Source: Burkholderiales bacterium (GTDB lineage Bacteria; Pseudomonadota; Gammaproteobacteria; Burkholderiales; Burkholderiaceae_C). Taken from it: 64,000 nt of DNA. The notes below the pieces were generated by a model that was not told the origin of the DNA, did not search any database, and worked only from the letters and a program-made list of their open reading frames with translations. Shown in pieces: positions 47,381 through 53,350 of the stretch. How positions within the stretch are numbered: position 1 is the first letter of the stretch; every line of letters begins with the position of its first letter. A program made the position numbers and the translations under genes. The DNA lies in the NCBI GenBank assembly GCA_026932235.1, contig JAIXKR010000006.1:104476-168475 (forward strand). Reading direction: 5' to 3'.

Positions 47381-48028
47381 ATGCAATTCACCGCCTACGA
47401 GCGAAGCGTCAAGGGGACCGGAGCGAGCCGCCGCCTGCGCAACGCCAACAAGGTGCCCGGCATCGTCTACGGTGCCGGCGCGCCGACGATGATCGAACTC
47501 GACCACAACGCGCTCTTCCACGCGCTGAAGAAGGAGGCCTTCCACAGCTCGATCCTCGAGATGGAACTCTCCGGCCAGACGCAGAAGGTGCTGCTGCGCG
47601 ACGTGCAGATGCACGTCTGGAAGCCGCTCGTGCTGCACGTGGACTTCCAGCGCGTCGACGAGACGACGCGTCTGCGCAAGAAGGTGCCGCTGCACTTCAC
47701 CGGCGAGGAGAACTCGCCGGCGGTGAAGACCGACAAGTGCCTGGTCAGTCGCGTGGCCACCGAGCTCGAGATCGAGTGCCTGGCCTCGCAGCTGCCCGAG
47801 TTCGTCACGATCGACCTCTCGGAGCTGGTCAAGGGCCAGTCGCTGCACGTCAGCGATCTCAAGCTGCCGGCGGGCATCCGGGCCGTCAAGCACGGCACGC
47901 TCAACCCGGTGATCGTCTCGGTCACGGTGCCCAAGGAAGAGGAGGAAACGGTGCCGACGGCCGTCGTCGCGGCCGCTCCCGACAAGAAGGGCAAGGGGAA
48001 GAAGGACGAGAAGCAGAACAAGCGTTGA
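47381..48028 (+). CDS. rplY: 50S ribosomal protein L25/Ctc
   Basis: This protein of 215 residues is the long (Ctc) form: an L25 domain ([15 protein letters not shown]), a C-terminal beta domain ([20 protein letters not shown]) and a Lys-rich tail ([15 protein letters not shown]). It binds 5S rRNA. A ribosome site (TGGAG) lies six bases before ATG 47381. In relatives pth usually follows; here 4.7 kb of accessory DNA intervenes. Confidence 0.95.
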
Positions 48029-48064
48029 GCCGGCTGCGGCGCCAAGCCGCGGTCTTGCGCAGCG

Positions 48065-48086
48065 AGGGCCCCCCATGTGGGGCCCT
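48065..48086 (+). terminator. Terminator after rplY
   Basis: AGGGCCCC, loop CCATGT, GGGGCCCT: an 8-bp perfect stem followed by TCGTCTGTG, moderately T-rich. It ends the prs-rplY transcript. Confidence 0.7.
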
Positions 48087-48286
48087 TCGTCTGTGTGCGC
48101 CCAGCCGCTTGGCAAGGCAGGGCATCAGAAGTCCGGGAGACCGGGGCGTGCGGGGGGGGGCGGGGTGCGGTGAAGCTGCACCTGAAACCGCGAGCGATGA
48201 AGCCGAGCTGGCGCGACGTGCACAAGCGGACTGCGGGGCCGGCGTCGACGGATGCACGGTGCTGGAGACGGGCGAATACCTCAAGC

Positions 48287-48448
48287 ACGCATGGCCGACA
48301 TCAACAGGGTCATGCGCCTCGCCCACTTCGACCGCCTGGGCGTCCCGAGATTCTCCTGACCTCAACTTCTCGAACCGCCCGGTGCGGACCCGCATGCCGG
48401 GTGGTGTGGGAGGGGCCCGATCAGCGATGATCGGCCCCTATCCCGATT
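48287..48448 (+). mobile_element. Group II intron 3'-end remnant, left copy
   Basis: The frame ending INRVMRLAHFDRLGVPRFS and a TGA matches the C-terminus of bacterial group II intron maturases. Twelve bases later begins a hairpin with the domain V layout: arms ACCGCCC / GGGTGGT, an inner GGTGCG stem, a short loop and a two-base bulge. A second hairpin (GGGGCC, GATCA, GCGA, TGATC, GGCCCC) then TATCCCGATT has the domain VI form with a bulged A and the usual intron 3' end. Domains I-IV and most of the maturase gene are missing. A nearly identical copy is at 52463-52651 in the same orientation. Confidence 0.65.
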
Positions 48449-48493
48449 CGCGCTCCTGCAGGCGGCCGTCGCCGGCCGCGTCAGGATTCACCG

Positions 48494-49330
48494 TCAGGCT
48501 TGCGGGCGGCGGCGGCGCGATGCGGCCACCGCACCCAGCAGGCCCAGGCCAGCCAAGGCCAGCACGCCCGGTTCCGGCACGCTGATCGGCTGGCCGGTGA
48601 TGACCAAGCCGAAGTCGATCGTCTCGGCCTGCCCTTCACCCGTCCAGAAGCCGAGGCAGCCGGACGGCGCGCCGGCGGCGGCGCAGGCCTGCGGGCTCAA
48701 GGGCGTCAGCGGGCCACTCTGCAAGTCGAGAAAGCTCACGTAGTAGGTGATGCCGTCGACGACGAACTGCTGGTTCAGGCTGCCGGCCGCCAGCACGAAG
48801 ACGTCATCGCAGACGGTGGTCGCCTCGGGGATGCAGGTGCCGGCGAGGTTGGTCGTCTCGGCAAAGTCGATCTGGAAGGTGAGCGACTGCGGAGCCAAAG
48901 GCGACCCGGCCGGGTCGGTGGGCTGCAGCGTCAGTGTCGTGATGACGCTCGCCGTCAGAAGGGTGGCGTGCAGGCCGCTGAGCGAATTGTTGACGTGCTG
49001 GAAGGTTGCCACCGGGCCGGGCACGATTGCGTTGGTGTTCACCGAGCCGTTCTGCGGCGAACCCAGGATCCTCAGGCCGCTGCGCTCGCCGCCGCCGATG
49101 ATCAGGTTACCCACTCCAGGGGCTGAGCCGTTGTTGTCGCCGCCCCAGCTGATCTCGCTGGGGGTCACGATCTGCGTGCCCGTGCCGGAGCCGAAGGTCG
49201 GCGCACCAGCGCCGGCGGTGACCCACTCCGTGGTCACGTTGTAGCTCCAGGTATTGATGAAGGCCGCCTGGGCACTCGCCCCGGCCACTGCCAGTGCTGC
49301 TGCGGCCACCATCTTGATCATCTGCTTCAT
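48494..49330 (-). CDS. PEP-CTERM anchored exported protein (THxN-like)
   Basis: This protein of 278 residues has a signal peptide (MKQMIKMVAAAALAVAGASA, cleaved after AQA), a beta-rich body starting FINTWSYNVTTEWVTAG and containing ISWGGDNNG, and a C-terminal SVPEPGVLALAGLGLLG with an RRRR tail. The body resembles the THxN subgroup of PEP-CTERM proteins. ATG 49330 has AGGAG upstream. A sigma-54 promoter lies 50-66 bases upstream, and prsT, the PEP-CTERM system TPR gene, lies further upstream on the same strand, so the pair forms one functional cassette. Confidence 0.85.
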   Translation of the reverse strand: MKQMIKMVAAAALAVAGASAQAAFINTWSYNVTTEWVTAGAGAPTFGSGTGTQIVTPSEISWGGDNNGSAPGVGNLIIGGGERSGLRILGSPQNGSVNTNAIVPGPVATFQHVNNSLSGLHATLLTASVITTLTLQPTDPAGSPLAPQSLTFQIDFAETTNLAGTCIPEATTVCDDVFVLAAGSLNQQFVVDGITYYVSFLDLQSGPLTPLSPQACAAAGAPSGCLGFWTGEGQAETIDFGLVITGQPISVPEPGVLALAGLGLLGAVAASRRRRPQA

Positions 49331-49380
49331 CTCGGTGCTCCTGCTGTAGATGCTGGGTCTCTCCCCACTGCAGCCGAGCA

Positions 49381-49396
49381 AGCATCTCCCGTGCCA
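49381..49396 (-). promoter_or_regulatory. Sigma-54 promoter of the PEP-CTERM gene
   Basis: On the minus strand the site reads TGGCACGGGAGATGCT. It agrees with the -24/-12 consensus TGGCACG-N4-TTGCW at all but one position, with the correct GG-N10-GC spacing. The predicted start of transcription (about 49370) leaves a leader of about 40 bases with an AGGAG ribosome site. PEP-CTERM systems with PrsK/PrsR use RpoN in related bacteria, which supports the call. Confidence 0.7.
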
Positions 49397-49503
49397 GACG
49401 AAATTTCCACTTCCATAGCAGGTACTTGCGTCGATGGCGGGGTGTCGGTGTTACATCTAGTGTCAAGAAATCCGACGACGTGCAGCTTGTCTGATGTCAA
49501 GAC

Positions 49504-52284
49504 TCAGAGGCGCTCGCGCAGCGCCGTCACGTCTCGCTGTCGCGGGTAGCGGTCGCCGAGCCTTGCCAGCACGTCCAGTTCGTCGCGGGCCTTGGCGCTG
49601 TCGCCGGATTCCAGCAGCAGTTCGGCCAGATGCAGGCGGTAGTCCGGCTGATTGGGCAGGCGCTGCACGAGCCGTGTCTGCGTCTCGACGGCACGCCGGA
49701 GTTGACCTTCGGCCGCCAGCGCCGTCGCCAGCGTGTCCTGGACGGCCGCACTGTAGGGTGCCGCCGCGCTCGCGCGCTCGGCGATCGCCACCGCGCCGGG
49801 CTTGCCCTGCCGCGCCAGCAGCCAGGCCAGGTTGTTCAGGGCGCCGGCGTGGGCGGGCTGCACCCGCAGCACGTCGCGGTATGCGGCTTCGGCACCCGTC
49901 AGATCACCACGTCTTACCGCCAGATCGGCGAGGTAGGCGACAAAATCGATCTGCTCCGGGTGCTCGGCCGACCAGCTCTTGGCGTGCCTGGCGGCCTCGT
50001 CGCCGCGGCCGGCCGCCAGCAGGCCGGTGTGCAGGCGAACCGCCGACTGGGCTGAGGGCTGGATCCGCAGGGCCTGGCGGTAGGCTGCGAGGGCGGCGTC
50101 CCAGCGCTGTCGCTGCAACTCGACATCACCTTCGAAGATGTACCCCACGGGGCTGCCCGGCTGGCGCTGTTGCACCTGGCGAGCAAAGGAAAGTGCGGCG
50201 TCGTGGCGGCCATTGCGCAGCAGCATGGCCAAAAGCGCCTCCTGGGCGCTCGGCATCTCGGGTGCCAGCGCAAGCGCCTGGCGAAGATGGCGCTCGGCAG
50301 CGGCCAGATCGCCCAGGCCGATGCGTGCGCTGGCCAGGTCGAGCTGGAGTTGCGGTGACTTCGGCAGCTTCTGGGCCAGGTCGGAGAAGGCGGTGACGGC
50401 CTGCTGGTGCTCCCCTGCCGCCAGCGACACCCGGCCCTGGGCGTGCAGCAGCTCGGTGTTGGCCGGAAAGGCGGCCGCGGCGTTGGCGGCCACCGTACTG
50501 GCGGCAGTGATCTGCCCGTGGCGCAACAGCGTGTTGACGAGCTGCAGCCGCAGGCCGACCGCGTCGGGGCTGGCCTCGACGGCCTTGGTGAGCTGTCCGA
50601 TGACCTCCTCGGCTGGCGCGCCGACGCGGTCCATCAGGTGCACCAGGGCAAGCTGGGCCCGCGCATCCGCCGGCCGTTCGTTCACCAGAGCCGTCAGCCG
50701 TTGGCGCGCCATCTCGGGTTTGCCGTCGAGCAGGTCCAGGCTGGCCAGCCCTTGCAGCGCGGGCAGCAGGCGCGGATCGACCTTCAGCGCGGCCTCGTAG
50801 CTGGCGCGGGCGCCGGCACGGTCGTTGCGCGCCGTGAGCACCTGGCCCCGCAATAGGTGTGCGGTGGGGCCATCGGGCTGCTTGCGGGCCAGCCCGTCGA
50901 TGGCGGTCAGTGCGCGGGGCCAGTCCTTCTTGCGCATGTGGTGGGCCACCAGCGCCAGGTCGGGTGCCGCACCCTGGCTGCGGCGCGCCAGGGCCTCCAG
51001 TTCCGCCAAGGCAGCCGCGTTGTCGCGCTGCGCCACCCGCGCGACGAGCTGCCCGAGCTGGAAGCGTTCGTCGCCTGGGCTGGCGGCCTGACCGCTGGCG
51101 AACAGCTGCTGGGCCTGGGCGGCATCGCCCGCCAGCAGGTGCGCCTGCCCCGCCATCGTGATCACCGAACCCGTGGCCTCGCCCGATTTCAGCATCGGCG
51201 CCAACGTCTCCAGCGCCGCGTCGGCCTGGCCCCTTCGCAGGTAAAGCTGCGCCAGCGTCTGCCGAGCCATCGTCAGGTTCGGCCCGCGCGCGAGCGCGGT
51301 CTTCAGCAGGGTTTCCGCCTTGTCCAGCGAATTCAGGTGGAACTCGGCCGTGCCGGCCAGCTCCAGCAGCACGGGATTGTTCGGCGATGCATTGAGCAGC
51401 GGCTGCACCTTTTCGCGCACGGCGGCGAAGTCCTTCCGAGCCAGGGCCGCCATGGCATGCAACACCTTGGCGGCGGGCTGGTTCGGCCTGGCCTTCTCCA
51501 GCGCTTCGAGTTGGGCCGTGGCAGCAGCGACGTCGCCCCGTGCCAGCAGCAGCAGCACCACGCCGCGATGGGCACCGACGTGGGCCGGGTCGGCCTGCAG
51601 TGCGCCGCGGAAGGCGGCCAGCGCCGCCTCGGAATTCTTGAACTGGGCCTGCTGGATCTCGCCGGACAGCACCCAGGCATCGGCCGTCTCGGGGCCGCCG
51701 CCGGCCTTGGCGGCTTCCAGGCGGCTCAGTGCCGCCTCGGGCCTGCCCGCTGCCAGATCCAGCCGGGCACGGAGCAGGGCCGCACGCGGCAACTCCGGCC
51801 CGGCCTTGGCCGCCTCGGCCAGCAGGCTTTCCGCCAGTGCGGCCTTGCCGGTCGCCGCCGCCGCGCCGGCCAGCGTCACCTTCAGTTCGGCCTCGGCGGC
51901 GGCATCCGACAGGCGCAGGGTGCGGTAACGGTCCAGCGCCTTGCCGGGTTCGCCGCTGCCCACCAGGGCCCGCGCCCGCGCGGGTGCGACCTCGTTGGGG
52001 TCGTGATTCAGCTCCTCGGCCTTGGCCAGTTCGATGTCGGCCGCGGCCTCATGGCCTTGCGCCAGCAAGGCCTTGCCCAGCAGATAGCGGACCGTGGGTG
52101 ACTGCGGCTCGTGCTCGAGAAAGGCCTTGAGCTCGACGACCGCCGCGGCGGGGTCCTGGCGGGCCAGCGCGGCCTCGGCCGCGGCCAGCACGTCGGCCTC
52201 GCGCCTGTCGCCGCAAGCCGCCAGCGTGGCCACCATGGCCGCCACAATCGTGACCCGAACGGTTCGCCTCGTCATTGTCATCAT
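49504..52284 (-). CDS. prsT: PEP-CTERM system TPR-repeat lipoprotein PrsT
   Basis: This protein of 926 residues has a lipoprotein signal (VAAMVATLAAC, acylated Cys) followed by DRREADVLAAAEAALARQD and about twenty TPR units to the end (for example AHVGAHRGVVLLLLARGD, HAGALNNLAWLLARQGK). Length, lipoprotein signal and the ALLAQGHEAAADIELAKAEE region match the PrsT family found with exosortase/PEP-CTERM gene sets, where it may guide export of the exopolysaccharide or the tagged proteins. ATG 52284 is preferred; ATG 52275 and TTG 52296 are in frame. It is upstream of, and on the same strand as, a PEP-CTERM gene. Confidence 0.85.
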   Translation of the reverse strand: MMTMTRRTVRVTIVAAMVATLAACGDRREADVLAAAEAALARQDPAAAVVELKAFLEHEPQSPTVRYLLGKALLAQGHEAAADIELAKAEELNHDPNEVAPARARALVGSGEPGKALDRYRTLRLSDAAAEAELKVTLAGAAAATGKAALAESLLAEAAKAGPELPRAALLRARLDLAAGRPEAALSRLEAAKAGGGPETADAWVLSGEIQQAQFKNSEAALAAFRGALQADPAHVGAHRGVVLLLLARGDVAAATAQLEALEKARPNQPAAKVLHAMAALARKDFAAVREKVQPLLNASPNNPVLLELAGTAEFHLNSLDKAETLLKTALARGPNLTMARQTLAQLYLRRGQADAALETLAPMLKSGEATGSVITMAGQAHLLAGDAAQAQQLFASGQAASPGDERFQLGQLVARVAQRDNAAALAELEALARRSQGAAPDLALVAHHMRKKDWPRALTAIDGLARKQPDGPTAHLLRGQVLTARNDRAGARASYEAALKVDPRLLPALQGLASLDLLDGKPEMARQRLTALVNERPADARAQLALVHLMDRVGAPAEEVIGQLTKAVEASPDAVGLRLQLVNTLLRHGQITAASTVAANAAAAFPANTELLHAQGRVSLAAGEHQQAVTAFSDLAQKLPKSPQLQLDLASARIGLGDLAAAERHLRQALALAPEMPSAQEALLAMLLRNGRHDAALSFARQVQQRQPGSPVGYIFEGDVELQRQRWDAALAAYRQALRIQPSAQSAVRLHTGLLAAGRGDEAARHAKSWSAEHPEQIDFVAYLADLAVRRGDLTGAEAAYRDVLRVQPAHAGALNNLAWLLARQGKPGAVAIAERASAAAPYSAAVQDTLATALAAEGQLRRAVETQTRLVQRLPNQPDYRLHLAELLLESGDSAKARDELDVLARLGDRYPRQRDVTALRERL

Positions 52285-52343
52285 GCCCCTGTCCAAGTTT
52301 CTGCCGTGCCCGGCCTCCGGCCGCCATCATCGGCAAGACTGCC

Positions 52344-52442
52344 ATGAACGCGACCGTGCGCGCCACCCTTCATGGCGGTGGCCGCGTCGCCGATGCCCTG
52401 CAGGCCGACGGCGTGCGCCAAGTCTTCACGCTGTGCGGCGTG
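52344..52442 (+). pseudogene. N-terminal scrap of a thiamine-diphosphate enzyme
   Basis: The frame opens MNATVRATLHGGGRVADALQ then ADGVRQVFTLCGV, the typical start of acetolactate-synthase-like ThDP enzymes. After about 33 codons the match ends and the sequence passes into the right-hand group II intron remnant. It lies directly behind prsT, divergently, with 59 bases between starts. Confidence 0.6.
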
Positions 52443-52462
52443 GACTCGGCCGCGCGCATTGC

Positions 52463-52651
52463 CGGCAACGCAAGACGCTGGTGGCGCAATAGCCGAATGG
52501 GGCTGAACAGGGTCGTGCCCCTCGCCCACTTCGACCGCCTGGGCGTCCCCAGATTCTCCTGACCTCAACTTCTCGAACCGCCCGGTGCGGATCCGCATTC
52601 CAGGTGGGGTGGGAGGGGCCCGATCAGCGATGATCGGCCCCTATCCCGATT
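52463..52651 (+). mobile_element. Group II intron 3'-end remnant, right copy
   Basis: The frame NARRWWRNSRMGLNRVVPLA then HFDRLGVPRFS and TGA is the end of a group II intron maturase. It is followed by the same domain V and VI hairpins as the left copy. Over 52506-52651 it matches 48303-48448 at 139 of 146 positions with no gaps. Three of the differences fall in the domain V 3' half and weaken its stem, so this copy is more decayed there. It ends 66 bases before the pth start. Confidence 0.65.
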
Positions 52652-52717
52652 GGGGCCGGTCATTCCCCCTGCACGCGCGATCGCCCGCCAGACCGCGGCT
52701 GCCTATGATCCCGCGCC

Positions 52718-53350
52718 ATGATTCGACTCTTCGTCGGCCTCGGCAATCCGGGGCCCGAATACGAGGCCACGCGCCACAATGCCGGTTTCTGGTGGCTGGA
52801 CGCGCTGGCTGCCAAGCTCGGCGCGCGCCTGGCCGCCGAGCGCAGCTACCACGCGCATGTGGCGCGCGTGAACGTGAACGGCGCCGCGGTCTGGCTGATG
52901 CAGCCGATGACCTTCATGAACCGCAGCGGGCTGTCGGTGGCCGCGCTTGCGCGCTTCTACAAGATCGCGCCGCAGGAGATCCTCGTCGTGCACGACGAGC
53001 TCGACCTCCCGCCGGGGCAGGCCAGGCTCAAGTGCGGCGGCGGCAACGGCGGACACAACGGCCTCAAGGACATCCAGGCGCAGCTCGGCAGCGCCGACTT
53101 CTGGCGCCTGCGCCTGGGCATCGGCCATCCGGGCGTGAAGGCCGAGGTCGTCGACTACGTGCTGCGCAAGCCTGCGCCCGATCAGCGTGAGGCCCTGCTG
53201 GCCAGCATCGAGCGCACGCTGGCTGCCAGCGCCGAGCTCATCGCGGGGGACATGGATCGCGCGACGATGAAGATCCACGCCGGTCCGGTGCGACCCAAGC
53301 CGCCGCGCGGGGCGGCGCCTGCTGCCGCGGCCGACGGGGACCGGCGATAG
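52718..53350 (+). CDS. pth: Peptidyl-tRNA hydrolase
   Basis: This protein of 210 residues has the Pth motifs [20 protein letters not shown] (catalytic His at the end), [21 protein letters not shown] (catalytic Asp) and [12 protein letters not shown]. It frees tRNAs from stalled peptidyl-tRNA. The C-terminal 20 residues are Ala/Pro-rich and beyond the usual end. Its usual partner rplY is 4.7 kb upstream because of the inserted cassette. Confidence 0.96.

Follow-up and report, generated by a model that had tools for sequence, protein, structure and literature searches.

Class C group II introns are marked by the triplet CGC at the position of the domain V catalytic triad. Insertion behind terminators is a reported habit of these introns (PMC4424553, PMC3522654), and repeated introns are described as giving homology for rearrangement and as a source of instability (PMC3522654). 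Homology-facilitated illegitimate recombination, homologous at one end of the incoming DNA and illegitimate at the other, is reported as rare in E. coli (PMC3240628). In Aquincola tertiaricarbonis, prsT is reported to be required for floc formation, with an adjacent RpoN-dependent PEP-CTERM gene also involved (PMC9850573).

Each of these ingredients is known; at the locus described here they are combined in a tidy and unusual arrangement. In a 64,000-nucleotide stretch of a Burkholderiales genome, hereafter the window, a prsT/PEP-CTERM gene pair lies between rplY and pth and is bracketed by two relics of a group II intron (Table 1). Most likely, the gene pair recombined in through the sequence that the relics had in common. 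Searches of open-licence PubMed Central text, judged by titles and abstract openings, turned up no paper on such an arrangement, which is no proof of its absence from the literature.

Table 1. Features of the rplY–pth interval (window positions)
Feature	Positions	Strand	Basis or remark
rplY (bL25), left native flank	47381..48028	+	NCBIfam
rplY intrinsic terminator stem and tail, 5′ exon of left intron	48060..48094	+	fold
Left intron relic, 353 nt	48095..48447	+	alignment to the full G473 intron, three internal deletions
First repeat copy	48303..48448	+	maturase C-terminus, domains V and VI, plus one exon base
THxN-family PEP-CTERM protein gene	48494..49330	-	NF038125 242 bits; PF07589 27.9 bits
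Sigma-54-like promoter TGGCACGGGAGATGCTTGC	49378..49396	-	48-66 nt before PEP-CTERM start
prsT, TPR-repeat lipoprotein of PEP-CTERM/XrtA system	49504..52296	-	TIGR02917 598 bits, cut-off 312
ThDP-enzyme gene, first ~32 codons, fused in frame to maturase remnant	52344..52439	+	
Right intron relic, 5′-truncated, last ~210 nt of intron	52437..52650	+	alignments to G271 and G473 introns
Second repeat copy	52506..52651	+	146-nt direct repeat
Native pth leader, 3′ exon of right intron	52651..52717	+	comparison with G402 empty site
pth, right native flank	52718..53350	+	TIGR00447 206 bits

The initial annotation had called two direct repeats of 146 nt, identical at 139 positions, and had read each as the 3′ end of a group II intron. 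A repeat search and an alignment confirmed the repeats, which differ at 7 positions and share no identical run over 43 nt. The search returned a single family in the window, extending over 151 nt (48303–48453 and 52506–52656) at 94% identity, and in the draft host genome (169 contigs, 81% complete, 5.8% contamination) the repeat is present twice in full together with one 29-nt partial match. In both copies a maturase frame ends (NRV..LAHFDRLGVPRFS stop) and is followed by domain V and domain VI hairpins. The Rfam comparison that had been proposed as a check came out differently for the two copies: the left matched RF00029 at 37.4 bits (E 4.9e-6), below the gathering score of 40, and the right gave no match at E up to 10; a scan of the whole window at gathering thresholds returned two tRNAs only and no RF00029. 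Four of the seven differences fall in domain V of the right copy, where the predicted fold is weaker than on the left (z −2.6 vs −5.4), and the intron identity of the right copy rests on 95% identity to the left copy and 87% identity to the intron of genome G473. In the left copy, CGC stands opposite AGC of RF00029 at the domain V triad position in an alignment read by eye. Judged by these sequence characters, both repeats are the 3′ parts of one group II intron lineage of class C type, and the reading as introns was borne out by the frames, the hairpins, the RF00029 match on the left and full-length relatives. Maturase-end bases GGGTC.TGC.CCTCGCCCAC are common to both relics and absent from every other locus compared; in a tree of 44 intron 3′ ends, the two are mutual nearest rows (path 0.064), within an open group of 13 rows that gives them no supported sister pairing.

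Only one of the two copies proved to be a bare 3′ end. Alignment to the full-length G473 intron moved the start of the left intron from 48303, as first annotated, to 48095, and resolved the left copy into pieces corresponding to nt 1–11, 386–516, about 590–660 and about 1693–1837 of that intron. From 48106 onwards, identity is 76% to nt 386–516, 85% to nt 590–660 and 89% from nt 1681; intron nt 12–385 and most of the reading frame are missing. Because the 5′ end, two internal pieces and the 3′ end all align, the left copy is a whole intron that has been internally deleted, and it is very likely inert. Its first 11 nt, GTGCGCCCAGC, are the start of related introns and stand directly behind the rplY hairpin. 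This 11-mer occurs twice in the window against 0.39 copies expected by chance; as two window copies also arise in 7 of 100 shuffles, its evidential weight lies in its exact place. The 5′ exon is native: it is the rplY terminator, which folds at −22.8 kcal/mol (z −4.30, 0 of 200 shuffles as good), against a z of only −1.55 for a stretch cut inside the terminator stem, and relatives carry, by eye, a hairpin-like sequence at the same place behind rplY. The 3′ exon is foreign and begins with T, the commonest first 3′-exon base of related introns (13 of 22, counted by eye). We also considered the left relic as a shared short mobile form and rejected this candidate, since five shortened related introns retain between 219 and 719 nt from the intron start and break at other points, and the left relic retains only 11 nt.

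The right copy did hold up as a 3′ end, with a 5′ truncation placed at about 52437 rather than at the annotated 52506. It is 83% identical to the intron of genome G271 over the last 214 nt of that intron, from 52438, and 87% identical to the G473 intron over 250 nt, in an alignment that takes in 31 nt of ThDP codons. No HMM matches the ThDP scrap itself; matches to it (E ≤ 0.01) are encoded in 26 of 399 family genomes (host included), of which the best two are classed by Pfam as TPP enzymes. The similarity stops at residue 32 in 21 of 25 relatives and reaches residue 48 in four (44–48% identity), so that the join between the ThDP gene and the maturase is uncertain by some codons on the ThDP side. 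The right relic is the reverse of the left in its exons, in that its own 5′ exon is lost, its 5′ side is foreign and truncated, and its 3′ exon is native: the stretches CTGCACGC and GCTGCCTATGAT of the pth leader also occur at the G402 empty site. Aligning the two exon stretches was uninformative.

The rplY–pth site was compared across relatives by a pth search of 41 genomes, which gave 39 pth matches in relatives and 29 comparable loci (23 of 24 from the same genus and 6 of 15 from other families). At 20 of the 23 same-genus loci, rplY lies 76–143 nt upstream of pth with no cassette; at the other three rplY was not found, two being ended by a contig end and one holding 1500 nt of other sequence. 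The two genes adjoin at all six loci from other families of the order, 63–143 nt apart. The annotation of rplY and pth as usual neighbours was thus upheld, and the comparison it had named as a possible refutation, prsT at this site without repeats, found prsT between adjacent rplY and pth in 0 of 26 relatives. No genome examined shows a lone intron between rplY and pth, the predicted intermediate. A misjoin at intron repeats during assembly would be in keeping with a draft of this contig number and contamination, and several related introns elsewhere do lie at contig ends. At this locus, however, two wrong joins would have to be assumed, since the native flanks on either side stand in the correct order; the repeats differ at seven sites, share only short identical runs and have just two full copies in the draft. 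We regard a misjoin as highly improbable.

The cargo was identified as annotated, namely as a PEP-CTERM gene with a sigma-54 site, prsT and a ThDP scrap, on the evidence of HMM matches, a pattern match and relatives. With prsT and the PEP-CTERM gene side by side and a sigma-54-type site in front of the latter, the pair constitutes a PEP-CTERM/prsT module. The sigma-54-like site is weak evidence by itself: a relaxed pattern has a second match, inside prsT, within the 7 kb examined. In gene content and promoter type the pair resembles the reported pepA–prsT pair of A. tertiaricarbonis, from which it differs in that the window protein belongs to the THxN family (PepA model 22 bits vs cut-off 80) and that its gene lies downstream of prsT, pepA being reported upstream (PMC9850573). 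By analogy with the A. tertiaricarbonis report, the cargo likely has a role in the surface matrix. It is likely a spare copy of a sigma-54-driven surface-protein module that is tied to exopolysaccharide and flocculation in other bacteria, and the host carries a second such pair on contig C129 (L197, 7829–11961), 44% identical in the PEP-CTERM protein and 38% in PrsT, with a similar sigma-54-like site in front of the PEP-CTERM paralogue and no repeat or RF00029 match among those listed. Samples of other genomes, with a capped number of candidates scored in each, yielded no close relative of the cassette genes: the closest other prsT reaches 45% among 60 genomes of the genus and 41% among 299 of the family (two candidates per genome), where the host's other copy also scores 41%, and the closest other THxN protein reaches 47% among 399 genomes. 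A PrsT search of genome contigs returned one distant match (22%, Chitinivibrionales). The GC content of the cassette (70.7% vs 71.3% for the window) gives no signal of foreign origin, and no replication, transfer, transposase or integrase gene was recognised in it by an HMM scan of the long frames and a listing of the short ones.

Relatives of the intron are widespread. The repeat has matches at E ≤ 0.001, some of them partial, in 63 of 399 family genomes and in 18 of 81 genomes of the genus (host included in both counts). At 18 of 29 non-host loci (L006–L034), the matching stretch closes a reading frame that bears group II maturase motifs, and several of the remaining loci run into a contig end. 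The 5′ part of the full-length relative in G271 matches RF02001 (103 bits) and RF01998 (48 bits), and its protein of 457 residues matches TIGR04416 (419 bits), PF00078 and PF08388 and has no other Pfam domain; the protein of the G489 intron matches TIGR04416 at 393 bits. The window holds only scraps of the intron protein, and the reverse transcriptase and maturase matches are those of these two intact relatives. The likeness to class C introns lies in a 5′ exon formed by a hairpin with a tail, an intron start of GTGCG, the CGC of the domain V triad, and a reverse transcriptase/maturase protein in the intact relatives (by TIGR04416 in two), which by Pfam in one lacks an endonuclease domain. The window copies differ from such introns in that one is internally deleted, the other is 5′-truncated, and both look dead. 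PF08388 has no match in the host genome, as far as the 81% complete draft shows it, and no intact ribozyme with a maturase, the mark of a mobile intron, was found there. The suggestion that the cassette is mobile now is not supported by these results or by the search for further bracketed loci described below.

A strict pattern placed both ends of 11 related introns, to which loci L099 and L135 add two full-length ones. By eye, a hairpin precedes the 5′ end in all 11; in two it is domain VI of another intron in tandem, and at L096 no clear T-run follows it. Five of the 11 are shortened (L010, 854 nt; L016, 498; L032, 523; L114, 1146; L122, 305). These keep the 5′ part and the 3′ end with much of the reading frame lost, and are possible ORF-less forms. 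At L130 (G420:C80, 1006–1007) and L032 (G141:C7), introns stand in head-to-tail tandem, the next start lying within a base of the previous 3′ end, as if the domain VI hairpin of the previous copy had served as target. Elsewhere in the host genome, G000:C125:13814-13876 (L004) is a second, different near-match to RF00029 (39.4 bits, cut-off 40).

From the exons, the truncated junction and the empty site we infer a route, an order of events and a donor. A class C-type, terminator-seeking intron A would have inserted behind the rplY terminator. Incoming DNA, or DNA of the same genome, would have contained a sister intron, B, with the end of the prsT/THxN PEP-CTERM pair as its 3′ exon, the donor sequence behind B being TCGCGCTCCTGCAGG. 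Homologous recombination inside A with B would have made the left junction, and an illegitimate join into the maturase end of A, cutting the ThDP gene, the right one. The product would read rplY, hybrid intron A/B, cassette, truncated intron A and pth, after which both relics would have decayed and the left lost most of its body. This exchange, homologous on the left and illegitimate on the right, has in our judgement about an even chance of being what the sequence records. It is favoured because one homologous and one illegitimate exchange give the gene order without a later deletion on the right, and it is supported by the native 5′ and foreign 3′ exon of the left relic, the foreign 5′ side and native 3′ exon of the right, the empty site, and the maturase-end bases and tree position that the relics share. 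Against it weigh the lack of a true donor and of a single-intron intermediate, the unsupported sisterhood of the relics, the absent GC signal and the draft state of the genome. It resembles the ectopic recombination described for bacterial group II introns in using repeated introns as homology; it differs in its apparent result, a gene pair gained between two core genes, and in that one of its junctions is illegitimate. Likewise, it shares with homology-facilitated illegitimate recombination one homologous and one illegitimate end; here that pattern is deduced from a genome sequence and the anchor is an intron.

The same hybrid exons would result if a circle bearing the cassette and one intron had integrated by a single crossover into the rplY intron, followed by a deletion that took away the 5′ portion of the right intron together with some of the ThDP gene. 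Linear DNA in E. coli is reported often to be ligated and integrated by single crossing-over (PMC3240628); nonetheless this course requires the extra deletion on the right, and the cassette has two long genes, prsT and the PEP-CTERM gene, with no replication or transfer gene recognised among the frames, so we consider it unlikely. Some intron-anchored arrival, be it by exchange between A and B or by a circle, is probable. The earlier proposal of arrival by recombination between intron copies stands as the simplest geometry given the exons and the empty site. Paired introns acting as carriers find no support: both copies look dead, the draft genome gave no maturase match, no second locus bracketed in this way was found, and the left copy is a whole deleted intron.

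Two further readings were weighed. In one, the cassette entered a first intron illegitimately, removing its 5′ part, and a second intron then homed to the same terminator. Related introns do sit behind hairpins and stand in tandem in G420 and G141, and the precise left 3′ end would be accounted for; yet the cassette edge would have to coincide with the second insertion point, beyond which no 5′ end of a first intron is found, and we think this sequence of events quite improbable. In the other, for which the head-to-tail introns of G420:C80 and G141:C7 offer a parallel, introns already stood in tandem at rplY and an unrelated event placed the cassette between them. A left boundary exactly on an intron 3′ end would then be a coincidence, and with no transposase or integrase recognised among the long cassette frames scanned, this is very unlikely.

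Returning to the proposed exchange between A and B, we scanned 72 loci, all but one (L129) of them intron loci, for genes that might point to a donor: rplY, pth, prsT and THxN. None of the 72 has rplY, pth or a THxN gene, and the many matches to the fused ThDP/maturase query fell on its maturase part. A single scanned locus has prsT beside an intron: in G489:C38 (L135, 1–4110), from the same genus, a prsT-like gene (TIGR02917 252 bits, partial gene) is followed by a VWA PEP-CTERM gene divergent from it (PF07589 28.9 bits), and then by a hairpin and a full-length intron. The intron stands directly behind the terminator-like hairpin of the VWA PEP-CTERM gene, has an open maturase frame and is 70% identical to the G473 intron. 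As a candidate donor we rejected it, on account of its other PEP-CTERM family, other strand order and the 70% identity of its intron to that of G473. It is a partial precedent, in that an intron beside a prsT/PEP-CTERM pair does occur, and it helps the proposed exchange a little; with several prsT genes per genome, a neighbour of this kind at one locus in about 70 may be due to chance.

The locus is a legible fossil of gene gain: the empty site, the foreign junction and the two native exon junctions are each located to within a few bases, which allows the order of events to be argued. Gain of genes through repeats is already known, and the anchor here is unusual; as a single case, the locus documents known repeat-based recombination with that anchor. 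Given sister introns behind many terminators in many genomes of the family, terminator-seeking introns could be recurrent docking points behind core genes, where unrelated gene pairs are swapped in between conserved neighbours as one intron recombines with another and intron decay hides the route, a generalisation we hold to be distinctly unlikely. Were the pattern to recur, accessory genes would have a docking route beside core genes that has been overlooked, namely decayed terminator introns. A search for same-strand pairs within 20 kb on one contig covered 13 intron-bearing genomes, with at most 40 candidates scored in each, and found no clear second locus with bracketed cargo; the same-strand pairs were the G420:C80 and G141:C7 tandems, which enclose no cargo, and one in G385:C3. 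The last comprises two same-strand intron 3′ ends 16.6 kb apart (G385:C3:720268-736998), and G271:C200 holds two short matches on opposite strands.
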